From NCBI GenBank assembly GCA_009741485.1, contig VKON01000212.1, positions 36,681 through 100,680 of the forward strand: a DNA stretch of 64,000 nt, given 5' to 3'. The position numbers and the translations under genes were made by a program. Under the pieces are notes generated by a model. That model was not told the DNA's origin, ran no database searches, and saw only the letters and a list, made by a program, of their open reading frames with translations. Shown here one piece after another: positions 27,501 through 64,000 of the stretch (its first letter is position 1; every line of letters begins with the position of its first letter). The DNA is from Malurus cyaneus samueli. Its lineage: Eukaryota > Chordata > Aves > Passeriformes > Maluridae.

Positions 27501-29671
27501 CTTCTTACCACTTTGATTACTTGTTCAAATTCTAATGTATGTATTTCAGAGATTTACATTAATGACTGTCATTAGAGGCCAGAAATTTACTGATAACCAC
27601 TTACAAGTACTGTCTTGGTTTGCATTACTCTTTGCCATTTAAAGTTACATATTCAGCTGTTTCTGAAATGGTCTTTTGCTTGCATGTGTTCTTTCTTGGG
27701 AAGGCATCAAGAATTCAATACATTGTGTCCCCAGCTTTAATACACTCTCAAAAGATGATTTTCATGAGATGGGAAACAGAGAGGGGAGGAAAAGCAAATA
27801 AAAAATATATTCTCTGTAGTTTTTCTTGTTTTGTAAACATTGCCAAGAAAGGGCTTGTTTTAAGAACAATAAAAATACAACAATTAAATCACTTACAGTG
27901 ATCTATTTTATTTCCTCTATTGAAACTGTGGAATGGTATAGAGATTTTCTACTTAGAACTCTTTCGACTGTTTCCAAAGTATGAATTAAATCTTAAAGAC
28001 TTGGATTCTCGGTATTATGCACACCATAAATTTACATTGAAATGCACAAGATGCAACTGTACATTGAATATGCACAAAGTAGAGTTCATTATCAAATTTT
28101 GCTGTAATCCTAGAACAAGTAGTGGTTTTAAAAGAGCAGTTGATTTAATTCTTAACTGGTTGTCAACATAAAAATAATTTAGAGCTTACACTCATGAATC
28201 AGGTACCAAGAAACACAGGTTTACAGTTGGACTTCTATCACACCTTACTCTTGTCTTCAAAGACTTATTGAATGAAAAAGAAATGAGGACCAGACCATAT
28301 TGGGATAACAGTTGAAAATATGGAGAATACTTCTTTGCTGATAACACTTATAATTATTTTAAGTATTTGGAGTTGTTACCTGTCAACAGTGAAATGCAAT
28401 AGACAGAAAAAAATTTAATCAGCAACTTTTTGTTGAGAAATAGAAGTTTAGGAAAAGAGCCTATGAAGTGTGTCATATCAAGCAAGATGCAGAAAATGTC
28501 ATAAGGCCTGTCTAGACAGTACACCAAGACTCAAACATACAGTAAACAATTGGGTTCATGGAGGTAAACCAGCAAGATTGTCTTGCACATTTACATTGTG
28601 TTCGTTCTCTATATGGTCATACTATAGCAGAAAAGAGAACCTGTAATTGCCATGACTAATTCCTATGAAGATTTAAGTCTCAAATTGTATGATTAAATGC
28701 TGTAACCCTTGTAGTAATTTGGTATGGGAAGTAATTTGCTGTGGTGAGTTTCCTCCTTTATGTCAACTCTTTTTATCATTGATGGCCTTTCCAATAGGAA
28801 ATATTCAAGAGTGGTTTTGGCAATTTTTCTCACTCCCTTTTAAGTACTAGTTCCTTGTAGACAAATATAAAGTACAGCTGATGGCAGATGACTTTGCCAA
28901 ATTAGGTTCTGAAGAGTCATAGCACTCATCTTTTCCCTCTAAAGCAGGTTAGACGAGTTCCTGAAAAAAGGGCACGGGGGAATGAGCACATTAAAATACA
29001 GTCTTTTATGTGCAATTTTATTTTTAAAAAGTACCCTTCAGAAAACTTGGAAGTTCATTTACAATTGTAATGTCTTTATAGTCTTTTAATATCAGGGAAG
29101 GATACTGATGTATGTACTTGAATCTGATCCTTTATCATAGAAAATTGAGCTTTCAGCCCTTTGACAATTATGTCCCACATTTCAATGAATATTGTAATGC
29201 CTGATTTTTCCTACGTAACGCCTAATTTTTCCTATGAACGAGGGGCATCAGAAGAGATTTGGGAGAAAAGTGAAAGAATGTCAGATAAGTTTTCTCTGGA
29301 TAGAAGTAGATGGAAGTAATGCAGAAGTATGTTGACCGTAGTGATACCCGTAGTAAAATTGCTTTTCAGAACTTACTCCATACTCAGTCAGAATTTTACA
29401 AGCTCATTTTGTCAAATGAATATCTGCCTCTGAGAAACTTGTGACAGTTTAGATATATTCATGATACAAATTTCAAAATGTAATTTTGAAACATCATAGA
29501 AATTTTCTCAATGAAATCCTTAACAAAAAAAAAAAAAATAGAAAAATCCGTATTCTAGAAAAATACTTAGTATTGCAGTAAGCAGACCCCTAATAGAAGC
29601 TGATACCATGCACCATCAACACTTGCTAACGTCTAAACTTCAAAAGTCTCTTTTGGGCTGGTATGAGAGGT

Positions 29672-30678
29672 TGTCTTGGTTTGAAAGATCGGTGTTTGCC
29701 GTGAAAAGAGACCCCTTGGAGTGGTGGATATGACCCTCCCTTTGAATTATTATAGCTTTGAAAACCATGGTCTTTCAGGCAAGAATATAGGTAAAACGGA
29801 ATAACAGCTTTTACTAACGTGTATAACAAGGTGAAACAAGTAACAACGATAGCAACAACCAGCCCAGTCCCAAACCCAGTGACAGCCTTGCAGAGACACA
29901 CCCTCCCCTTTGGTGCAGTTCCAGTCCCAGTCAGAAGGGGGCACTGTTGGCTCCCAGCCAGGCAGGGTGGGTGCGATGATTCCCCGGCAGCTGCAGGGGG
30001 CACTGTGATGTGGGTCCCTACTGGTTCAGATCTCTCACATGGCCAATGGCAGACACAAACCAGCAGAGATGGCTGCAGAAAAGTTCCTCTACAAACTCAC
30101 AGTGGAAAACGCCAATCTCGGTGCTTCTCTGGACGGCAGGAAGCCCCAGGACAGCCGGATGAGCAAAGAGATGACCAGAATCCCATGGCTGCAAGACGGG
30201 ATGCAGCAAAACTCCACTACTGGAATTGGAATCTCAGGGGTCCCCAGCAAGGCACAGGGGCAGAAGATCACAGTGCAGCAAACAGGAACCAACAAGCGGA
30301 GATGCTGGACTCTGCAGAAAGCAGCAGGCAAGTTGCCCCCTGCAGGTAGCAGGTCCACCTCCTTTCCCGAGCCAAGCAGGGTAGGAAATGAAGTTACCCC
30401 CGCCTCACTTATGCACACTTTCCCCAAAAAGTGTCCAAAACTCCCGCAAGAACCTCCGTTTCTCCAGAGAGGGATAAAAAACAAAACAAAACAAAACAAA
30501 AAACCTGTCAGGCAGGAGTGCTCAGGGAGATCCTTCGGGTGGGGCGTAGGTTCTTTTTGTCTTTCCCAATTGCCCAGCCATCAAACGAGTGACTTGGCAA
30601 TCAGTGTATCCCAGCAACAAAATGGGCAAGAAAAATTCCCCAGAAAGGAAACAAAAAGAGAAACCTTAAACCACAACA
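29672..30678 (-). mobile_element. Solo LTR with perfect 5-bp target-site duplication
   Basis: A 1007-bp block starts TGTCTTGGTTTGAAAG and ends TTAAACCACAACA, giving imperfect inverted termini (TGTyNTGGTTT). It is flanked on both sides by GAGGT (29667-29671 and 30679-30683), a clean 5-bp duplication as expected of ERVL-type integration. A diverged relative lies at 38987-40027, and a duplicate in the right arm at about 34250-35510. The sense strand is judged from the relative, whose plus strand carries the R/U5-like CCTTGTTATA stretch. The 232- and 176-codon ORFs inside are not genes. Confidence 0.85.
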
Positions 30679-31368
30679 GAGGTGAATCCTCACTGCTGTT
30701 TCCTTTACTCCCTGCAGGAAAACTGAGTAGATGGTGATGATACATATCACCCCTTCATCCCATCATCCCTTGCTCCTCAGTTCACTTCCACACATCATTC
30801 ACTCTACCTTCCTCAAGACGGAGGGCATATTGCACTCCTCATTTATCAGCTCTGTCTCTTCTCTTTCCTGATTGTATCCGAGGGTTGCACGTAGGTTCCT
30901 TGTTCCTGTCTCTGGCAGAGGTTAATAAACAGCAACCTGCTCATGAACTCTGAAAGGTTCTGAAGCAGAGGATGGTAGTGGTAGTTGGTAAAGAAGGCAC
31001 CTAGGAAGGGGAGTGGAAGAGCGTGGAGGGAAAAGGAAGAGGGGGAAAAGGAAGCTATCTCCTCCTTCCTGGTGTCTGACTGATATACTGGGTGTGGTAA
31101 GCCAATGCATTCCAGGAGAAAAAGGGAATGTTTAAATATAAGAGTGTGGAGAATACAGACTTGTCTGGGTGTTTTATGACGTGTTCTGTATTTAGTCATA
31201 TTTCATATTGCTCCCCACAAGCCTTCTAGTTTTGTTATCAGTGATGGCCTGCCACTTTTGCTGTTCACTGTTGTTTAGAAAAGAGAAGCAAAGTCCTAGT
31301 GGGAAAACTGTTAAAACTACACAATCAGCTCTGGAGAAATCTAAATCTCCATTTTTTTTTTAAGTTAT

Positions 31369-32035
31369 TGTTGTGGTTTAGGAATGGTACTCCCCAATGT
31401 CGTGCCCATGCGGAGATTCTCTGGAATGCCATTCACTCTCTTTCCCTTCCCATTCCCACTGCTGAGGGATGGAGTTGAGAATCAGAGGTACACAGGTAAA
31501 GATCAGAGGTTGAGATAAGAACAATTTGCTGGAAACAGCTGTGAGATTTAAAAAAAAAAAAAAAAACACCAAACAGTAGCAGCAACAAATTTAATAACAA
31601 AAGTATTCAAAAAGAGGTAATTATTCACATGCAAGAGTGCTCACCTTGGAGCCCCCCAAAACAAACAATGCTGACTTTCAGAAATGTCCTCTGAACATGG
31701 TCCTGCGATACAAACAGAAAGCAGCTGGTTTCCTAGGGATCTTGGACAGTAACCAGGAAAGCCAGCTGTTTATATGCAGGGGCTCAGTGCAGTTCAGTCC
31801 TTCTCACATATAATCAGTCACTCATTTTCTTTCTGTAAACAATTCAGGATCTGTGCTGAATAAAAACATTGCAGACTGAGTCAGTAACTTGAACTCCAAA
31901 CGACAGATATAAATGCTGATGATTCAGGGAAGGTAGAGTGTGACCTCCTCGCTACCAGTCTGTGGAGGTGTGTTCGGCTTCCTCAAGATCTCCTGTACTC
32001 CATCTTGTGTGCGCTTATCATCTGCTCTCTCAAGT
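31369..32035 (+). mobile_element. Probable second LTR in the left arm, right edge unresolved
   Basis: Starts TGTTGTGGTTTAGGAATGG, matching the terminal motif of the neighbouring LTR family. A GAATAAAAACATTGC poly(A)-like segment lies near 31858. It stops before a CR1 segment that begins about 32040. A mirrored copy is at about 32950-33570. Confidence 0.45.
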
Positions 32036-32039
32036 GCAG

Positions 32040-32218
32040 CCACATTTTAAATGAGAATAAAGGTGAAAAAAAATGTGATGGGATAGAAAATGATAGGATT
32101 TTGAAATTTCTGAGGAGTAAGTTTCTGTTTGTATTCCTGTCTTCCATGGAGCACCAGAGCTAGGAATTCCCAGGAGCAAGAAATCAGGTAAGGAGGACAA
32201 GAGCCCAGCATGGCTGAG
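32040..32218 (+). repeat. CR1 ORF2 segment ending at the gap
   Basis: Plus-strand translation gives CIPVFHGAPELGIPRSKKSG and then KEDKSPAWLS, the CR1 region just after the endonuclease domain. The frame is cut by the N run at 32219. Its continuation is found reversed on the far side (32769 down to 32244) and then at 37389. Confidence 0.8.
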
Positions 32219-32243
32219 NNNNNNNNNNNNNNNNNNNNNNNNN
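32219..32243. other. Assembly gap, 25 N
   Basis: A run of exactly 25 N. A fixed short N run is a typical placeholder left by gap-closing software. It separates the two inverted arms. Confidence 0.98.
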
Positions 32244-32769
32244 AGTGCCATGACTTTGAAATATCATGTGAGAGTGCGCTTGGCAAATTACATGTCCATT
32301 CCCTCAGGATATCTGGGTGCATGATTTCAACAGGTCCCAACAGACTTACGTATAATAGAGTGCTCCAGCAGTCACGAACCTGATCTTTACTTATGCGAGC
32401 AGGAGGGATTTTCTCCTGCAGCCCCCATCCTGCTGTTCACTGACTTGAGAGGTGAGGGCATAGAGAGGATCATTGGAGACTGAGGTAAAAAACTGTTGAG
32501 TATCTCAGCCTTCTGCTTATCAATTGTTACCAGTTTTCCGTCAGTTCCGGTTTTTTTTGTTTTTTGGGATATACATCTTGATTCCTTTCTTGTTAACACA
32601 CCTGCAAAAGCCCTTCCATTTTTTGTGTTCCTTGCGAGGTTCAGTTCCAGCAACATCTTGGCCTTCCTCACCCCATCCCTAAACAGCTATACATCTCTAT
32701 ACTGATCTCATGTCACTTGTTTTGTTCACTCCTGTGCATTTCTTCTTCCTTTAGTTGACCAGCAGTCAC
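32244..32769 (-). repeat. CR1 ORF2 segment, probably in reversed orientation
   Basis: On the minus strand the reading runs GVRKAKMLLELNLARNTKNG, then KLVTIDKQKAEILNSF, then VEIMHPDILREW and SALSHDISKSWH. This is the CR1 stretch linking PAWLS (32218) to [10 protein letters not shown] (37392 onward). It is the only part of 32244-37388 not present in the left arm. Confidence 0.85.
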
Positions 32770-35700
32770 TCAGCCATGCTGGGCTCTTGTCCTCCTTACC
32801 TGATTTCTTGCTCCTGGGAATTCCTAGCTCTGGTGCTCCATGGAAGACAGGAATACAAACAGAAACTTACTCCTCAGAATTTCAAAATCTATCATTTTCT
32901 TCCATCACATTTTTTTTACCCTTTATTCTCTTTAATGTGGCTGCACTTAGAGAGAGCAGATGATAAGCGCCACAAGATGGATACAGGAGATTTGAGGAGC
33001 CGAACACACCTCCACAGTCTGTAGCGAGGAGGTCACACTCTACCCTGATCATCAGCATTTATATCTGTCGTTTTGGAGTTTCAGTTACTGACTCAGTCTG
33101 CAATGTTTTATTCAGCACAGATCCTGAATTGTTTACAGAAAGAAAATGAGTGATGATTAATATGTGAGAAGATGAACTGCCATGAGCCCTGCATAAAACA
33201 GCTGCTTCCTGGTTACTGTCCAAGATCCTAGGAACCAGCTGCTTTTCTGTTTGTATCGCAGGACCATGTAGAGGACATTTCTGAAAAGTCAGATTGTTTG
33301 TTGTGGGGCTCCAAGTGACACTCTGCATGTGAAATTAATACTCTTTTTGAATACTTTTGTTATTAAATTGTTGCTGCTACTGTTTGGTGTTTTTTTTTTT
33401 TTTTTTTTAATTCACAGCGTTTCCAGCAAATTTCTTATCTAACCTCTGTCTTTACTGTGTAACCTCGATTTCAACCATCCCTCGCAGTGGGAATGGAATG
33501 GAAAGAGAGTGAATGGCATTCCAGAGAATCTCCGCATGGGCACGACATTGGGGACCATTCTAACCACAACAATAACTTAAAAAAAAATGGAGATTTAGAT
33601 TTCTCCAGAGCTGTTGTGTAGTTTTACAGTTTTCCCACTAGGACTTTTGCTTCTCTTTTCTAAACAACAGTGAACAGCAAAAGTGGCAGGCCATCACTGA
33701 TAACAAAACTAGAAGGTGTGGGGAGCAATATGAAATATGACTAAATACAGAACACGTCATAAAACACCCAGACAAGTCTGTATTCTCCACACTCTTATAT
33801 TTAAACATTCCCTTTTTCTCCTGGAATGCATTGGCTTACCACACCCAGTATATCAGTCAGACACCAGGAAGGAGGAGATAGCTTCCTTTTCCCCCTCTTC
33901 CTTTTCCCTCCACGCTCTTCCACTCCCCTTCCTAGGTGCCTTCTTTACCAACTACCACTACCATCCTCTGCTTCAGAACCTTTCAGAGTTCATGAGCAGG
34001 TTGCTGTTTATTAACCTTGCCAGAGACAGGAACAAGGAACCTACGTGCAACCCTCGGATACATCAGGAAAGAGAAGAGACAGAGCTGATAAATGAGGAGT
34101 GCAATATGCCCTCCGTCTTGAGGAGGTAGAGTGAATGATGTGTGGAAGTAATGAGGAGCAAGGATGATGGGATGAAACGGGGTCTGGATATGTATCATTA
34201 CCATCTACTCAGTTTTCCTGCAGGGAGGTAAAGAGAAAAGCAGCAGTAGAGGAGAGTTCACCCACTCCTGTATTTCTTCCGTTGTTAGGTTTCTTTCCTT
34301 TGCTCATTATCACTGCTGTGGATTGGTTTCTTGCCAATTTATGTTGCTGGCTCAGATACATGTATTCCAAGATTCACTTCGGTTTTGTATGGCTGGGCAA
34401 TTGGACAGACAAAAAAACCTTACGCCCCACCCGAGGCATCTCACCTAAACACTCCTGTCACTGGACAGGGTTTTTTGTTTTGTTTGTTTTCGTCTTTTTT
34501 ACCTTTCTATCTGAGAAACGAGGAAGTTTCTTCGGGAGTTTTTTGGTACTACTTTTTGCGGTGCACGTGTTGCTCATCGAAGTGAGGCGGGGGTAACTCT
34601 TCTTTCACTAACCCTGGCTCTGGACTCGGTGAAGGACGATGGATCCTGTACCTGCCAAAGGGGCAACTTTCTGCTGCTTCTGCGACCGAAGTTCCCATAT
34701 TCTCGCATCTCCGCAATTTGTTTCGCTCCAGTTCTTTTGCTGCCACTGTGATCTTCTGGCCCCTTGCCTTGTGGGGACCCCTGAGATTCAATTCAGTTAT
34801 GAGATTTGCTGCAAGTCCCGTCTTGACAAAGCCATGGGATTCTGTCATCTCTTTGCTTCACCGACATTGTCTCCTGGGCTTCCTGCCGTTATCTCAGACC
34901 ACCACAAAACCTGAGATCATTGCGCGTTTTCACCTATCTGCATGATGTTTTTAGTTAGAACTTTTCATCAGCCACTCTTGCATCTGGATTTGCTCTGCAT
35001 TGGCCATGTGGTGAGTCTGAAACCATTAGTCGACCACATTCCGAAGTGCCCCCCCACCCTCCCATGCATTGTCTTCGCTCCGGGGAATCATCCGCACACC
35101 ACCCTCCTTGGCTCGGGACAGCCAACAGTGCCCTCTTTCCTGCCACCTGGACTTGGGAACCACCAAAACGGGTACGGGTGATGTCTTCACCTAGCTGTCC
35201 ACTGGGCTTTCTTGTGGGGATCTGGGCTGGTTGTTGCTTATCGTTGTTGTTACTTGTTCACCTTGTTATACTCACGCGATAGTATAAAGCGTTATTCCGT
35301 TCTTACCTATGATTCTTAGCCTGAAAACCATGGTTTTCAAAGACGTTATAACTGTGAATTCAAGAGAGAGGTCCATATACAGCCAACTAACCGTAAGGGC
35401 AAGCTCTGTGCTTTTCAATCGAAAGCACCGACTTTTTACAAAACCCAGACAAACGGCTCTATACCAGTGCGCCAAAAGAGAATTTTTGAAGTTTAGACGT
35501 TAGCAAGTGTGTGGGGTTGCATCGGTATACTTCTATTGGGTCTGTACTTGCAATACTAAGTATTTTTCATAGAATACGGAGATTTTCGTATTTTTCTTAT
35601 TTATTCCTTTATTAAAAGATGATTTCATGAATATTTCTAGTGAGCTTTCAAATAATAACGTTCACCAAATACATTTTGGATTGTATCATGGAGACTATAT

Positions 35701-37388
35701 CTCAAACTGCTCACCAAGTTTCTCAGAGCAGATATTCATTGACAAAATAGCTCTGTAAAAATTCTGACGTGAGTATGAGTAAATGTCGAAAAGCCATTTA
35801 TACGGGTTATCACTCCGGTCTATAACCATACTCTGGCCCTTACTTCTCAATCCTACTTCTATCCAAGAAGACACTAATTACTGACATTCTTTCACATTTT
35901 CCCCAAATCTCTTCTGATGCCGCTCAGCATTCATAGGAAATAGGGCAAGTTACCTAAGCGGTAAGAGTAAGAAATCTAGCATATACAATATCATTGATGT
36001 GTAAACATCATTCAAAGGCTGAAAGCATCAATCTCTTCTATGATCTTCTGAGAAGGAATGCTAGATTCAAGACATACTCAGTATCCTTTCCCTATATTAG
36101 AAAGACTAATAAAACATACACTTGCTAATGAATCCAAATTTTCTGGTCAGGTCTACTTTTTTAAAACTCATAAAAATTGCCTAAAGATGTATTTTAATGT
36201 GCTCTTCCCCCGTGCCCATTTTTTCAGAACTCGATCATAACCTGCTTTAGAGGAAAAGAATTGAGTCTATGACTCTTACAGAACCTAATTGCAAAATCAT
36301 CTGCCATTCAGCTTGTCACTTTTATATTTCTGTCTATCAAGGAACATAGTACTTAAAAAGGGAGTGAGAAAAATTGCCAAAACCACTCTTGAATATTTCC
36401 TATTGGAAAATGCCATCAATGATAAAAAGAGTTGACATAAGGAGGAAACTCACCACAGCAAATTTACTTCCATTACCAAATTACTACAGGTTACAGCATT
36501 TAATCATACAATTTGAGACTTAAATCTTCATAGGAATTAGTCATTGGCAATTAACAGGGTTCTCTTTTCTGCTATAGTTATGACCCATATAGAGAACGTA
36601 ACACAATGTCAAATGTGCAAGACAATCTTGCTGCGTTTACCTCCATGAACCCAATTGTTTACTGTATGTTTGAGTCTTGGGTGTACTTGTCTAGACAGGC
36701 CTTATTGACATTTTCTGCATCTTGCTGTGAATATGACACACTTCATAGGCTCTTTTCCTAAACTTCTATTATCTTCACACAAAAGTTGCTGATTATTAAC
36801 TTTTTTTCTGTTCTATTGCAATCTTCACTGTTTGTACGGTAACAAACATCCAATACTAAGCAATAATATACTGGAAAGGTTATCAGCAAAGAAGAGCGCA
36901 GAGTTTCTCCATATTTTCAACTGTTATCCACATAATTGCGCTTCTGTCCATCATCTTTTTTTCTCTCTGATATAAGTCTTTTAGAAAGGCAAGTGAGTGT
37001 GAATGAAGGTTTTCAACTGTCAAACCGCACTGTTTCCGGACTTCTGATTTTCATGAGTTGAAGCGTCTATTATTTTTATGTGACAACCAGTTAAGAATTA
37101 AATCAACTGCCTCTTTTAAAACCACTACTTGTTCTAGATTACAGCAAAATTTTTGATAATGAACTCTACTTTGTGCATATTCAAATGCTTACAGTTGCAT
37201 CTTGTGCATTTCAATGTAAATTTATGGTGTGCATAATACCGAGAATCCAAGTCTTTAAGATTTAATTCATACTTTCGAAACAGTCGAAAGAGTTCTAAGT
37301 AGAAAATCTCTATACCATTCCACAAAGTTATCGGAATATTTCAGAGCAATAACAACTCAAATATTATCGTAAGTATTACTTGTTGTCG
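32770..37388 (-). repeat. Right arm of the inverted repeat, likely a misplaced raw read
   Basis: Reverse complement of 27868-32218, about 270 bases longer than its partner. Differences are mostly isolated one-base insertions or deletions, often homopolymer changes, and are densest at 34150-37388. For example, the two versions of 28480-28660 differ almost only by added single bases. The ORF at 33737-34129 mirrors the one at 30846-31199. Features inside it (LTR at about 34250-35510) should not be counted as extra copies. Confidence 0.8.
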
Positions 37389-37830
37389 CACTCAGATGAA
37401 GTTCCAGATGACTGGAAAAGAGAAAAAAATTGTACCCATCTTTAAAAAGAGTGAAAAGGAGCACCCTGGGAACTACCAACCTGTCAGTCTCACTTTTGTG
37501 CCTGGGAAGATCATGGAACAAATCCTACTAGAACCTCTGCTAAGGCATGTGGAGGACAAAGAAGCACAGCTTCACCAAGATTAAGTCCTGCCTGATCAAC
37601 CTAGTGGCCTTATTGATGAAGTGTCTATATCAATGGACAAGGGAAGGGTTCTATATGACATTTATCTGGACTTCTATAAAGATTTTGGCATAGTCTCCCG
37701 CAGCTTCTTTCTCTCTAAAATGGATTTGATGAGTGGATTGTTAGATGGATGAAAAAGTGCTTGGATGGTCACATCCAGAGAGTAGTGGTCAATGGCTCAG
37801 AGTCTGGATGGACAAGTGACAAGTGGTGTC
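37389..37830 (+). repeat. CR1 ORF2 segment (reverse transcriptase), interrupted by an LTR
   Basis: The plus strand reads [12 protein letters not shown], then after a one-base slip in an A-run [20 protein letters not shown], then [11 protein letters not shown], and near 37780 RVVVNGSESGW. The beginning GCACTCAG overlaps the end of the reversed piece at 32244, which joins the two. Stops and slips show an inactive copy. Confidence 0.85.
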
Positions 37831-38720
37831 TGTTGCAAATGGAGTGAGAGCTTAGACAAACCCTGCCTTGGCTCAGATTTCTGACAGTAGCTCTGTTTGA
37901 GGTGGCCAGCACCCCAAAGGGTTCTCACTCTCAGGTTGTTAAGAATGGCTGATTAGGTCAATTAAAAAAATTAATTATTTATTGAATAGACACAAGATTA
38001 ACAGACATAAAACTTTAAACAGGTTACTTACTACACAGGACAAAACAGAAAGAACTACTAGTAGATAAAAAATACCATGCATTATGAAAGGTACCTGTAT
38101 TACAGCTAGCAAAGAAATAACATAGATTAGGAGTCAATGTAGCTTACCACCAAACTGATGATGGAGTACTCATTAAGTCCTTTCAGACTCAATTTCCAGG
38201 AAAGTAACCATGAAGATACATCCAAACTTCAGGGAAAAGCCTTACATGTTTCCAGGTGTATAAGAGAGTTCTGATTTAATGAAGGTTTGTGTAGCTTTTA
38301 TTGTTTGTAAAGTGAAGTGCATGTCAATGACAAATTCCAGCAGTTTATCTCCCTACATCTTGTTTTCAAGGCAAAATGTTTATTGTCAACTAGGAGTTCT
38401 GCCTCTAGCACCAGAGAGAGCTGGCACTATCACTAGCTAGAGATAACTCACTACTGGGTAGTCTGGCCTGGGTTATCTCATCAATTCATGTGAGGGGGAG
38501 AACGCCCCGAACTATCACATCAGCTGATAGAACAGATAAGGTCTTCTGTAGTAGGAGGAAACATCGCCCACAAGTTGGTCCTCAGTTTGCCATAATCTGA
38601 CGATATAAATCTCATAAAACCAGAGATTATGGGTTGAGTGTACCCCAGCAAGTCAGAGATTACCTATTGGAGGATGGTGGTGACACACCTGATGATGACA
38701 GGAACAATATCCGAGCAACA
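37831..38720 (-). mobile_element. Solo LTR inserted in CR1
   Basis: 890 bp bounded by TGTTGC and GCAACA, perfect 6-bp inverted ends, breaking the CR1 just before its motif-B region. The minus strand has AATAAA near 37975 close to the TGTTGC end, consistent with a minus-strand LTR. A plus-strand CGATATAAATC is probably fortuitous. No matching duplication was found, so either the edges are off by a few bases or the insertion is old. Confidence 0.65.
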
Positions 38721-38986: not shown

Positions 38987-40027
38987 TGTTGTGACCCAGG
39001 GCATTCTTGGGATGGTGTCTGTGCAGGACCAGGAGCTGGGATTTGATCCCTGTGGTCCTCGTTTTGAGTGTTAAGATTTTTTTTTTTTTTTTTTCTGTTT
39101 TTTTTTTGTTTGTTTGTGTCTTTGTTGTTTTGTTTTTTTTTTTTTTGTCCTTCCTTTTGGGATTTTTCTCCATTTGTTGCTGGGAACACTGATTGCTAGT
39201 CATCCTTTTGATGGGAGTGTTAGTGAAGACAGATGCACCTATGCCCCACCTAAACGGAATCTTGCTAAGCCACTGGGAGGTGTGTGTTGTGTGTTGATGG
39301 GGGTGTAACGTTCACTTCCTCCGCTGCTTCTGGGGGGAAGGAGGTCTACCGTAGCTTCGTGGGGGAGAGGTTGGCCTGCCTTTCTTTCGGCAGAGTCCAG
39401 CATCTCCACTCATTGGCTTCCTGTTGCTGCACTAGTGATCTTCTCCCCCTGTGCCTTGCCGGGACCCCTGAGATTCCAGCTATCAGGAGTGAGCTCTGCT
39501 CCATCCCATCTAAGCCGCCTCTGGTTCTTGCTGTCAGAGGAGCACCGAGATTGGTGTTTCCGCTGTGAGTTTCCAGAGAAACTTTTCTCCATCCACCCCT
39601 GCCATTTTTGTGTCACATGTCGATATGGTAAATCTTGACCAGCGGGACCCGCCACAGCGCCCCTGCAGCCCCGGGAATAATCTACCCGCCTGCCCAGTGA
39701 GCCAACAGTGTCCCTGCTGAGGGGACTGTGACTGCACCAAAGGGGAGGGGTGTGTCTCTGTAAGGCGTCACTGGGTTTGGGTGCTGGGTTGGTTTCTATG
39801 TTAATTGTTACTTTTTTACCTTGTTATACATATGATTAAAAACGGTATTTTTTTTTTTTTTTTTTTTTTCTTTTCTTTTTTTTTGTTATTTTTTCCTTTT
39901 TCCTTAACCCATATTCTTACCTAAGCCTGGATTTCCAAGCTATAGGATAATTTTGAGGGAAGGGAGTCATATCCACTCACCCAAGGGGTCCCTCTCATTG
40001 GCAAACCATTGTCTTCAAAGCAAGACA
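38987..40027 (+). mobile_element. LTR related to the one at 29672-30678, inserted in CR1
   Basis: Starts TGTTGTGACCC and ends CTTCAAAGCAAGACA. Its interior shares a series of motifs with the reverse complement of 29672-30678: CTTGCCGGGACCCCTGAGATT, the SPQQG-like GCCAACAGTG block, CACTGGGTTTGGG, CCTTGTTATAC, and CCAAGGGGTCCCTCTC. Two long T-rich tracts (39077-39146, 39848-39890) interrupt it. No target-site duplication was found. Frames within it (for example 38827-39189) are not genes. Confidence 0.7.
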
Positions 40028-57290: not shown

Positions 57291-60200
57291 ATGGAATTCA
57301 TTCCTTCCGCGCCTTCCGCGCCTTCCATCCGCGCCTTCCTTCCGCGCCATCCACGCCTCCCTTCCTTCCTTCCTTCCTTCCTCTCCTTCCTTTCCTTCCT
57401 TACTTTCCTTCCTTCCTTCCTTCCTTCTTCCTTCCTTCCTTCCTTTCCTTCTTCCTTTCTCCTTCCTCTCTTCCTTCCTTCCTTCCTTCCTTCCGCGCCT
57501 TCCTTCCTCTTCTCCGCCCTTCCTTCCGCGCCTTCCTTCCGCGCCTTCCTTCCGCGCCTTCCTTCCGCGCCTTCTTCCGCGCCTTCCTTCCTTCCGCGCC
57601 TTCCTTCCTTCCTTCCGCGCCTTCCTTCCTTCCGCGCCTTCCGTTCCTTCCTTCCTTCCTTCGCGCCTTCCTTCCTTCTACGCCTTCCTTCCTTCCGCGC
57701 ATTCCCTTCCGCGCTTTCCTTCCGCGCTTTCCTTCCTTCCTTCCGCGCCTTCCTTCCGCGCCTTCCTTCCTTCCTTCTGCGCCTTCCTTCTTCCTTCCGC
57801 GCCGTACTTCCTTCCTTCCGCGCCTTCCTTCCTTCCTCCGCGCCTTCCTTCCTTCGCGCCTTCTGTGCCTTCCTTCCGCGCCTTCCAACCTTCCTTCCTT
57901 CCTTCCTTCCTTCCTTCCTTCCTTCCTTCCTTCCTTCCTTCCTTCCTTCCTTCTCTTCCTTCCTTCTTCCTTCCTTCCTTCCTTCCCTTCCTTCCTTCCT
58001 TTCTTCCTTCCTTCCTTCCTTCCTTCCTCCTTCCTCTTCCTCTTCCTTCCTTCCTTCCTCCTTCCTTCTTCTCTCTTCCATTCCTTCCTTCCGCGCCTTC
58101 TTCCGCGCTTCCTTCCCGGCGCTTTTCCGCGCCTTCCTTCCGCGCCTTTCCTTCCGCGCCTTCCTTCCGCGCTTTCCTTCCTTCCTTCCTCTTCCTTCCT
58201 TCTTCCTTCCTTCCTTCCTTTCCTTCCTTCCTTCCTGGCCTTCTTCCTTCCTCCCGCGCCTTCCCTTCCCGCCTTCCTTCCGCGCCTTCCTCCGCGCCTT
58301 CCTTCCGCGCTTCCTTCCGCGCCTTCCTTCCGCGCCTTCCTTCCTTCTTTCGGCGCCTTCCTTCCGCGCTTCCTTCCTTCCTTCCGCGCCTTCCTTCCTT
58401 CTTCCGCGCTCTTCGCCTTTCCTTCCTCCTTCCTTCCTTCCTTCCTTCCTGTCCTCCTTCCTTCCTTCCTTCTTCTCCCCTTCCCTTCCTTCCCGCCTTC
58501 CTTCCTTCCCGCCTTCCTTCTCCTTCCGCGCCTTCCTTCCTTCCGTTCCTTCCGCGCCTTCCTCCTTCCGCGCCTTCCTTCCTTCCGCGCCTTCCTTCCT
58601 TCCGCGCCTTCCTTTCCTTCCTCCTCCTTCCTTCCTTCCGCGCCTCCTTCCTTCGCGCCTTCCTTCCGGCCTTCCTTCTTCCTCGCGCCCTTTCCTTCCT
58701 TCCTTCCGCGCCTTCCTTCCTTCCTTCCGCGCCTCCTTCCGCGCCTTCCCTTCCTTCCTTCCTTTCCTTCCTTCCTTCTCTTCCTTCCTTCCTTCTCCTC
58801 CTCCTTCCTTCCTTCCTTCCTTCCTTCCTTCCTTCCGCGCCTTCCTTCCTTCCTTCTTCGCGCCTTCCTTCCTTCCTTCCTGCCTTCCTTCCTTCCTTCC
58901 TCCTCTTCCTTCTCCTTCCTTCCTTCTTCCTTCCTTCTCTTCCTTTCTCCTTCCTCCTTCCTTCCTTCCTTCCTTTTCCTTCCTTCTTCCTTCCTTCTTC
59001 CTTCCTTCCTTCCTTCCTTCCTTCCTTCCTTCTTCCTTCTTCCTTCCTTCCCACGCTTCCCTTCCTTCCTTCCGCTCCCGCCTTCCGCGCCTTCCTTACG
59101 CGCCTTCCTCCTTCCGCCCGTCCGCGCCTTCGCGCTTTCCTTCCTTCCTTCCGCGCCTTCCTTCCTTCCGCGCCTTCCGCGCCTTCCGCGCCTTCCGCGC
59201 CTTTCCGCCTGTCCACGCCTCCGCGCTTTCCTTCTCACGCCTTCCTTCCTTCCGGCTTCTCCGCAGACTTCCTTTCGCGCCTTCCTTCCTTCCTTCATAT
59301 CATTCCTGCGCCTTCCTTCGGCCCTTCCCTTCCTTCCATCGCCGCCTTACCTTATCTGGTACTTTCTTCCGTGCCTTCCTTGCGCGCCTTCCTTGCCGCG
59401 CTTCTTCTGCGAGTTCCTTCCTTCCTTCCCTTCGCGCGTTCCTTCCCGCCTTTCCTTCCTTACTTCCTTCTTCTTCCTCCTTCCTGTCCTTCCTTTCTTG
59501 CTTCCTTCTCTTCCTTCCTTCCTCCGCGCCTTACTTCCACCGCTTCCTTCTTTCTCGCGCATTCCTTCCTTCCGCCCTTTCCTTCTCCTTCCTTCTCTTC
59601 CTTCCCTTCCTTCCTTCCTTCCTTCTTCCTTCCTTCCCTTCCTTCTTCCTTCCTTCCCTTCCTTCTTCCTCTTCCTTCCTTCCTTCCTTCCTTCCGCGCC
59701 TTCCTCATTCCGCGCCTTCTCTTCCGCGCCTTCCTTCCTCGCCTTCCTTCGTCCTCCTTCCGCGCCTTCCTTCCGCGCCTTCCTTCCGCGCGTATCTCTT
59801 CCGCGCCTTCCTTCGCGCCTTCCTTCTATTCTCCGCGCCATCCTTCCGCGCCTTCCTTCCTTCTTGCCTTCCTTCCGCGCCTTCCTTCCGAGCCTTCCTT
59901 CCGCGCTTCCTTACTATCCTCTTCCGGCGCCTTCCTTCCTTCCTTCCTGCCGCGCCTTCTCCTTCCGCGCTTGGGGTTCTCTTCCCTTTTTCCTCCCGTC
60001 CCTCCTTCCTCCCGCGGCCGTCCGGCCTTCTCCTTCCTTCCTTTCTTCCTCCCTCCCTTCCTTCCGCGCCTTCCTTCCTTCCTTCCTTCTTTCTCCTTCC
60101 TTCCTTCCTTCCTTCCTTCCTTCTCGCGCCTTCTTCCTTCCTCCTTCCTTCCTTCTTCCTTCCTTCCTTCCTTGGCACTGCGTCCGCGCTCCGCGCTTCG

Positions 60201-63200
60201 CGCTTCCGCGCTCTCTTCCTCTTTCACTTCCCTTCCTTCCAAAGCGATCGCTTCCTTCCTTCCGCGCCTTCCTTCCTTCGCGCCTTCCCGCTTCCTTCTC
60301 TTCTTCCTGCCTTCTTCTCTTCCGCTCTTCCTTCCTCTCTTCCTTTCTTCTGTCCTTCTCCTTCCTTCCTTCCCTCCTTACCTTCCTCCTTTCTTCCTTC
60401 CTTCTTCCTCTTCTTCCTTCCTTCCTTCTCCTTTCCTTCCCTTCCTTCTCCTCTCCTTCCTTCTCCTATCCTCTTCCGCGCCTTCCTTCCCTTTCTTGCC
60501 TTCCTTCCGCGCCTTCTTTCGCGCCATCCTTGGCCTTCTTCCTTCCTTCCTTCCTCCCTTCCTTCCTTCTCTTCTTTCCGGCCTTCCTTGCCCGTTCCTT
60601 CTTTCCGCCTTTTGCCCCTTCCTTCCTTCCCTTCCCGCGCCTTCCTGTCCCTTCCTTCTTCCGGCCTCATCCTTCCTTCCTTCCTTCCGCGCCTTCCTTC
60701 CTTCCGCACCTTCCTTCCGCGCTTCTTCCTTCCTTCCTTCCTTCCTTCCTTCCTTCCTTCCGCCTTCCGCCCTCTGTCGCCCCGTCGCCTTCGCCCTGTC
60801 CTTCCTTCCTTCCTTCTTTCCTTCCTTCCTACCTTCAGCCTTCATCCGCGCCATTCGCCTTGGGCTTTCTCTTCCGCGCCCTTCCTTCCACGCTTCCTTC
60901 CTTCCTTCCTTCACGCGTTCCTTCCTTCCCTTCCTTCCTTCTTATCCGCGCCTTCCTCCTTCCTATCTTCTCCTTTCCGCGCCTTCCTTCCTTCCGCGCC
61001 TTCCTTCCTTCCTTCCTTCCTTCCTTCCTTCCTCCTCCTTCCGCGTTCCTTCCTGCGCCTTCCTTCCTCGCTCTTCCGTCGCTCCTTCCTTCCGTCCTTC
61101 CTTCCTTCTCCGCTTCCTTCCTTCATCCTTCTTCCTTCCTTCATCGTCCTTCTTCCTTCCTTCCTTCCTTCCTTCCTCCTTCCTTCTTCTCCTTAGCCTT
61201 CCTTCCTTCCTCTTCCTTCGTTCTCCTCCTTCTTCCTTCTTCCTTCCTTCGCAATTACCTCCTCCTTCAGCGTTCGCGTTCCTTCCCTTCCTTCCTTCTT
61301 CCTTCCTTCTCCGCGCCTTCTCGAGCCTCGCGCCTTCCTTCGCGCCTGCGCCTTCCCTGTCCTATCGCGCCTAATCCCGCTTCTTCCTCCTTCTCCTTCT
61401 TCCCGCTCTTGTTCTGCGACCCTTCCGCGCACTTCCTTCGTCACGCCATGCACTTCCTTCCGTCCCTTCTCCGCGCCTTCCTTTCTTTACGCGTCTTCTT
61501 CCTCCCTCCTTCGCGCTTACCTCACCCTTCCTTCTCTTCCAAGCCTCCTTGTCCCCTTCCTCGTTCTCTTCCTTCTTTCCTTCGCTTCCTTCCTTCTTCC
61601 TTCCTTCTTCCTCCTCTTCCTTCCTTCTTCCTTCCTTCCTTCCTTCCAGCTTCCTTTCCTTCCTTTCTCTTCCTGTACTTCCTATGCGCCTTCCTTCCCT
61701 GTCTCCTTCCGCGTTCCCTTACACGCCTTCTTCCTTGCCCTTCCTTCCGCCTTCCTTCCGGCCGCGTCATTCCTTCCTTACCCTTCGCAGCGCTTCCTTC
61801 TCTCCTGCTTCCTTCCGCCCTTACCCTTCCATGCAGTATCCTTCCTTCCTTCCTCTTCCTTCTCAAGAGTTCCTTCCACTTTCCAGGGTTCCGGCCTGTC
61901 CTTCCTTCCTTGTACCTCTCCTTCCTTTGCGCCTATCTCGGTCCTGTCCGTCCTCTTCCTTCATCCTATCCCTTCCTTCCTTCCCTTCCGTTCCTTCCTC
62001 CGCGCGCCCTTCCTTCCTCGCGCGGCCTTCCTTCCAGTCCTTCCTTCCTTCCGTTCACTTTCGCTGCCTTCCGCGACCCTTCCGTTGCACGCTTCCTTCC
62101 TGCGAATCTTCCTTCCTTGTGATTCTTCCTTCCTATTCTTCCTTCCTATTCTTCCTTCCTATTCTTCCTTCCTATTCTTCCTTCCTATTCTTCCTTCCTA
62201 TTCTTCCTTCCTATTCTTCCTTCCTATTCTTCCTTCCTTTCCCTCCTTCCTTCCTTCCACTTTCCTTCCTTCCTTCCATTCCTTCCTTCCTCCTTCCTTC
62301 CTTCTCCTTCCTCCTTCTTCCCGCCTTCCTTCTTCCTTCGCGCTTGTTGTTATATCCTTTCTTTCCTTCTCCTTCCTCTTCCTTCGCCTCTTCCTTCCGC
62401 GCCTTCTCACGCCATTCCTTTACCTCCTTCCTTCCCTTTCCGTCCTTCCTTCCTTCCTTCTTCTTTCCTCCGCGCCTGTTCCTCCCGCGGCTCAGCGTAC
62501 TTCCCTCGGCCTTTGCCCCCTTCCTTCCTTTCTTTCCCAGCGCCTTCCTTCTTCCTTCCCTTCCCCCTTTTCCTTCCGTGCCTCTCCCTTCCTCTTTGCT
62601 TCCTTCCTTTCTTCCTCCCTTCCTTCCTTCCTTCCTGTCCTTCCTTCTCATGTCCTTCCTTCCTTCTTTTCCTTCTTCCTTCTTCCTTCTTTCCGCGCCT
62701 TCCTTCCTCCTTCCCGCGCTTCCTCCTTCCTTCTCCTATCCCGCCTTTCCCGCGCGACCTTCCAGCCCCTTCCGCCTCACTTCTCTCCTTTCCTGTCTTC
62801 CTCCTTCCTACCTATTCCGAGCCACTTCCATTCTTCGCGCCTTCCTTCCCCGCATGTTCTTACATCCCTGCGCCTTCCTCTTCCGCCGCTCTCCTCTTCC
62901 TTCCTTCCTTCTTCTTTCGCGCCTTCCTTCCTTCTTCCCTTCTTCCGGCGTCTCTTTCTTTCCTTCCGCGCCTTCCTCCTCCTTCCTTGCTTCCTTCTTT
63001 CTCCTTCTTCCTTCCTTCATTCCTTCCGCGCCTTCCTAACTTCCTTCATTCCTTCCGCGCCCTCCTTCTCTTCCGCGCCTTCCTCCTCCATCTCTCTTCC
63101 ATCTTCCTTCCTTCCTTCCTTCCTTCCTTCCTTCCTTCCTTCCTTCCTTCCTTCCTTCCTTCCTCCTTCCTTCCTTCCTTCCCTTCCATCCCGCCTTTCT

Positions 63201-64000
63201 TTCGCGCCTTCCTTCCGCGCCTTCTTCCTTCCTTCCTTCCTTCCTTCCTTCCGCGCTTTCCTTCCTTCCGCCCTTCTCCGTCGCCTAACTTCCCGCCTTC
63301 CGCGCCTTCCGCGCCTTCCGCGCCTTCCTTCCGCGCCTTCCTTTCCTTCCTTCCTTCCTTCCCCGCATTCCTTCCTTCCTTCCTACCTCCCTCCCTATAC
63401 CTCCATTTCCTTTCCTTCCTTTGGCCTTCTTCCTTCTTCCTTTGTATTCTTCTTCCTTCCTACTCCTTCTTCCGCGCCTTCCTTCCGCGCTTTCCTTCCT
63501 TCCTTCCGCGCCTTCCTTCCTTCCTTCCTTCCGCGCCTTCCTTCCTTCCGCGCCTTCCTTCCGCGCCTATCCTCCGCCCTTCCGCGCCTTTCTTCCACGC
63601 GGCCTTCCTTCCTACTTCCTATCCTTCCCTTCCACCGACCTTCCTTCCTCCTTCCACGCCTTCCTTCCCCGCCTTCCATCCTTCCTCCGTCCTTTCTTGT
63701 CCTATATTAACCTAAGACTTACTTCCTATGATTCCTTTTCCTTTTCCTTCCTTCCTTCTTGCTTTCTCTTTCTCTTTCCTTCCCTTCTTCTTCTACGCTT
63801 CCCTTTAGTTTCGTCCTTCCTCCCTTCTTCGCTTCCTATCTCCTTCTCCTTCCTTCCTTCCTTCGCCTTCCTTCCTTCCTCCCGCGCCTTCCTTCCGCGC
63901 CTTCTTCTCCCGGCGCCGCCTGTTCCTTCTTTCTTCTTATCCGTCCCTCCTTTTTGTGCAGCGCACGCCTTCGTTTCTTTTTCTTTTCTGGCTTCTATTG
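57291..64000. repeat. CT-rich tandem array: (CTTC)n mixed with CGCGCCTTCC units
   Basis: 6.7 kb of almost pure C/T on the plus strand starts abruptly after GGAATTCATT and runs off the window end. The two building blocks are CCTTCCTTCC runs and CCGCGCCTTCC units, combined irregularly. Because pure C/T on one strand and G/A on the other cannot form most stop codons, giant open frames arise on both strands (plus 57291-61196, 1301 codons of Pro/Ser/Phe/Leu; minus 59298-57400, 632 codons of Arg/Lys/Glu/Gly). These are not genes. Irregularity rises to the right, where non-repeat bases become more frequent. It could be a real degenerate satellite or poorly resolved reads. Confidence 0.95.
62122..62238 (+). 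repeat. Nine perfect 13-bp tandem units inside the CT-rich array
   Basis: ATTCTTCCTTCCT repeated nine times without a mismatch. It is the most regular stretch in the right part of the array. Confidence 0.95.

Follow-up and report, generated by a model that had tools for sequence, protein, structure and literature searches.

The inverted repeat around the single run of N in the window (the whole stretch analyzed here, which spans the final 64,000 bases of C193, a scaffold of 100,680 bases in an assembly of 1.067 Gb and 1295 scaffolds) is most likely an assembly artefact and not biology, and its value lies in marking a fault that is possibly systematic. The explanation that we consider very probable is that a long-read gap patch of the opposite strand over-filled a gap of likely 520 bases, situated inside one plus-strand retrotransposon, with 5.1 kb of reversed sequence that now reads as a false palindrome arm. 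This second arm is probably absent from the animal. The retrotransposon is one that we take to be CR1, a name that comes from a preliminary description of this DNA; judged by the size of the assembly and its CR1 content, the animal is likely a bird.

Read in order, the sequence passes from plus-strand CR1 ending at 32218 to 25 N, then to minus-strand CR1, then to a reverse-complemented left flank, and finally to plus-strand CR1 again. The left flank (27877–32218, plus strand), whose final base directly abuts the gap, is the accurate copy and forms the first arm of the palindrome; it closes with CR1 piece A (32139–32218, plus strand), the translation of which ends in PAWLS. The gap itself (32219–32243) is the only run of N in the window and is exactly 25 N long, the size that PBJelly gives to short gaps when it inflates them, according to a passage in PMC6733440. 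It is followed by CR1 piece B (32244–32768, minus strand), 525 bases that are likely the true gap content lying in reverse, and then by the likely spurious second arm (32769–37387, minus strand), in which the left flank is read again, with many errors, as its reverse complement. The right flank opens with CR1 piece C (37388–37830, plus strand), whose first 5 bases are the same as those that end reversed piece B. Subtracting this overlap from piece B predicts that 520 bases truly separate 32218 from 37388, in place of the 5169 that were assembled.

Pieces A and B were searched separately in the same genome, and eight CR1 loci were fetched where B matched over most of its length, a choice made before any result for piece C. 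Once B is reversed, the element is collinear with other CR1 copies, in that A, reversed B and C follow one another on one strand in six of the eight (L030, L031, L032, L033, L034 and L037), two of which include a short match (48 bases of piece C in L034 and 34 bases of piece A in L037). As for the other two, L035 has no piece A and matches piece C only from base 199, while L036 has no piece C and has piece B split in two parts. Piece A, for which the genome holds 34 matches, 2 of them in the window, is present in seven of the eight loci. The preliminary description had read the element as PAWLS on the plus strand up to 32218, then 32769 to 32244 reversed, then plus-strand CR1, and this order is borne out by the strands, the reading frames and the six collinear copies. 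With the pieces translated apart, the reading frame passes both joins, and at the first join it runs ...SPAWL/S/DCWSTK. Piece B contains internal stops and frame shifts, so the host CR1 is a decayed copy; a Pfam search at E ≤ 1 gave no hit for three peptides, which are short and lie between stops. In a search of the PDB with a CR1-like fragment, LINE-1 ORF2 and one RNA-directed DNA polymerase made up the four hits, all of them weak and not used as evidence.

The end of reversed B and the start of C have GCACT in common (37388–37392), and an overlap of 5 bases is what four of the six measurable copies imply, with 4 bases in one copy and 14 in another, the last figure needing 37 bases of extrapolation; a seventh row, based on another match of C that lies far off in L032, was left out. 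A terminal overlap in GCACT had already been noticed, and its five shared bases stand, with the correction that the right flank begins at 37388 and not at 37389. Among 39 other CR1 matches to 37325–37860, 13 start exactly at 37388 and 2 start earlier. At the A–B join, B begins slightly too late to sit flush against A, by one base judging from L030 and by four bases judging from L031, L032, L033, L034 and L036 (in L037 piece A cannot be extrapolated to this join). Since the filler itself reads through the A–B join, the 111 bases of it that adjoin B being identical to the left contig end, this offset is either a minor lesion in the copy at hand or an error in the read.

The differences between the two arms are rich in indels, with insertions in excess: 32769–37386 aligns as the reverse complement of 27877–32218 with 4074 matches, 65 mismatches, 479 extra bases and 203 missing bases in the right arm, which gives an identity of 84.5% when that full pairwise alignment is scored and of 82.8% by BLAST over 27927–32218. 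In the pairwise alignment the right arm carries 301 insertions and 177 deletions, and 357 of these 478 indel events are of one base. The far end of the arm (37325–37388, 64 bases) matches the left flank weakly, with 4 of 500 shuffles reaching an equal score. Accuracy varies along the right arm, from 100% over 301 bases (30919–31219) to approximately 68–82% per 100 bases at 29000–30700. This patchiness suggests partial consensus or polishing, which must be assumed since a 301-base identical run beside stretches of such low accuracy is not what one raw read would yield.

A repeat at 29672–30430 served as a referee between the arms, both of which were compared with seven other copies, namely the six best-scoring loci in the same genome and one at 39.3–39.8 kb in the window. 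Over the 370 columns where the arms differ, the family agrees with the left arm alone in 286, with the right arm alone in 23 and with neither in 21 (24 columns are ambiguous and 16 without information); substitutions are far more numerous in the multiple alignment than in the pairwise one, and the split of these columns by type is untrustworthy, but their direction is plain. The six genomic loci are 76–83% identical to the left arm and 51–55% to the right in pairwise comparison, and the seventh copy is 52% identical to the left arm and 34% to the right. The differences in a genuine palindrome should be divided between both arms, but 286 of the 309 decided columns put the change in the right arm. 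The CpG content points the same way. Random base-calling errors create CpG, while CpG is lost as copies age in a methylated vertebrate genome, and the observed/expected ratio nearly doubles from 0.243 in the left arm to 0.454 in the right (44 vs. 84 CpG in the aligned parts). Given the direction of change relative to the repeat family and the raised CpG, sequencing, and not evolution, seems to have produced the right arm as a noisy copy. The filler, indel-rich and with errors that fall nearly all within it, has the long-read error profile of an over-filled gap.

The referee is itself a dispersed repeat of approximately 740 bases, for which LTR-like is only a guess; 39 further matches to it were scored among 1480 genome candidates, and a second, more diverged copy lies in reverse at 39295–39841 of the window. 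When the genome was searched with 27800–30000, the matches besides the two window copies were confined to the last ~350 bases, a dispersed repeat, with 40 of 1480 candidates scored, a sample which does not show the remainder of the query to be single-copy.

In the explanation that we favor, a read of PacBio type, or a consensus made locally from a few such reads, would have spanned the gap and been anchored on the right contig. The five shared bases suggest that it was cut at the first base of that contig (37388), since the gap-side end of the filler matches the right contig start within five bases. The tail of the read, comprising the gap content and approximately 4.6 kb of left flank, would then have been attached to the right contig without reverse-complementing, and the whole filler (32244–37387) would be this one reversed tail, with the gap marker before it and the right contig after it. 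Such a tail would no longer have overlapped the left contig, and because it could not merge with that contig, the gap would have been kept as a 25-N marker at 32219–32243, in the way that PBJelly treats short gaps; the length of 25 N is what points to a PBJelly-like gap filler. The preliminary description had proposed that 32244–37388 was inserted backwards, and that the simplest genome is one continuous plus-strand CR1, about 0.5 kb of which now lies reversed, with no second arm. The reversed CR1 piece is indeed there, although the insert is larger than 0.5 kb and adds approximately 4.6 kb of re-read left flank, while the single continuous element without a second arm gains support from the collinear copies, the five-base join, the read-type errors and a second case flush with a 25-N gap (described below).

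A different artefact, which we consider improbable, is a read with a missed adapter (a fold-back read), in which case the filler would be the second pass of a hairpin read running back along the left flank. The second arm is error-rich, as this would have it, and passages of the PBJelly paper state that missed adapters yield opposite-strand copies in ~1% of PacBio reads (English et al., 2012; PMC3504050). However, a fold-back read would turn at random, at a point unrelated to contig edges, whereas the gap-side end of the filler falls no more than 5 bases from the right contig start and in register with the CR1, and the five bases common to the two suggest a cut where that contig begins. A forward pass through the gap is also missing, with 25 N in its place.

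The favored explanation, a read tail pasted in unreversed, can be compared with what is found at other gaps of the same length. The readable part of C193 has one further 25-N gap, at C193:32259–32283 (L029:5579–5603), 4.4 kb upstream of the window. The 690 bases flush with it (C193:31569–32258) recur in reverse at 35838–36534, 3.6 kb downstream, with 97.4% identity and 17 gaps in 702 columns, and a looser alignment extends this inverted copy at lower identity. It is likely the same artefact, though without the rise in CpG (the ratio is 0.044 in the arm vs. 0.088 in its left partner, and 0.25 in the gap content), and no terminal overlap was found between its filler and the right flank. The filler of this second gap also opens, at the first base past the N, with C193:17460–18473 in reverse at 86% identity (at 32284–33294) and holds a direct 94% copy of C193:18473–19197 (at 35065–35791); the two source stretches meet at C193:18473, which is perhaps another hidden seam. 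At the third 25-N gap (C1063:24637–24661, or L022:1476–1500), which lies beside a CR1, the flanks examined show no inverted copy, and the 937 bases that follow it recur in direct orientation ~2.65 kb further on at 98%. The inverted flush-copy pattern is therefore present at two of the three 25-N gaps seen, both on scaffold C193, and the sampled parts of C1236, C1141 and C1269 (110 kb, ~89 kb of it readable) contain no 25-N gap. At the other end of the window, which is also the scaffold end, a 6.6-kb irregular CCTT-rich repeat (57312–63904) runs nearly to the last base; raw reads may have extended the scaffold here. Counting against the pasted read tail are the patchy accuracy of the arm, the 23 of 309 decided columns at which the right arm is the family-like one, the second case lacking a CpG rise and a terminal overlap, and the third gap lacking an inverted copy.

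It is also important to consider a real inverted duplication with the CR1 at its center, in which partial gene conversion would have made the identical patches. The patchy identity, with its 301 identical bases in one run, is what such conversion would leave, but the differences are dominated by indels and nearly all private to one arm, and CpG goes up, not down. The CR1 would moreover have to break at the contig edges and yet be collinear after the insert is reversed, and the same geometry is seen at the second gap. We reject this palindrome on the direction of the errors, the CpG and the CR1 order, and regard it as very improbable. Least credible is that two separate CR1 copies lie here as neighbors in opposite orientation with no misassembly, which we reject since A, B and C are consecutive stretches of a single element: this genome is rich in CR1 and neighboring copies are common, but independent insertions would hardly follow on from each other with nothing missing or repeated beyond a few bases, and the error-rich arm would stay unexplained.

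If the pasted read tail is the right explanation, the record loses an inverted duplication of 4.6 kb, along with ~4.65 kb of surplus sequence. The combination of an inverted copy that abuts a 25-N gap with an excess of indels in one of its arms is a simple diagnostic, by which faults of this kind can be recognized before anyone scores them as palindromes, segmental duplications or inversions. Tentatively, and with somewhat less than even confidence, we suggest a systematic strand fault in which the tails of spanning reads anchored on one side are pasted unreversed, with many false palindromes flush at 25-N gaps here and in similarly made assemblies. Were the fault systematic, these could pass for real inverted duplications, and with the pattern at two of three gaps, both on one scaffold, a genome-wide count is worthwhile.

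Over-filled gaps as such are known, being reported together with missed adapters in passages of the paper on PBJelly (English et al., 2012; PMC3504050), in passages on 28,377 gaps in Trematomus (PMC9635638) and on 236 gaps in a bird-of-paradise (PMC7757076), and as a suspicion in a passage of PMC8848313. The titles, abstract openings and passages of the gap-filling literature that we consulted contain no account of a filler that is itself reversed and repeats the opposite flank, which is not proof of its absence from print. The present locus resembles the over-filled gaps described in these passages in that error-prone long reads extend contig ends, excess sequence results, and the gap is left open with a 25-N marker. 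It differs from them in the orientation of the filler, which is not that of the extended contig, since the CR1 order requires it to be reversed; the published accounts, as far as these passages go, deal with extensions that do not reach each other, for which errors of scaffolding or assembly, inversions included, are suspected. With the palindromic reads that arise from missed SMRTbell adapters it shares an inverted, error-rich copy of the flank, but the filler ends at a contig edge and not at a random turn point. The host element, finally, is like other CR1 LINE retrotransposons in its ORF2-like pieces and its dozens of related genome copies, and is unlike an intact one in being an ordinary decayed copy.
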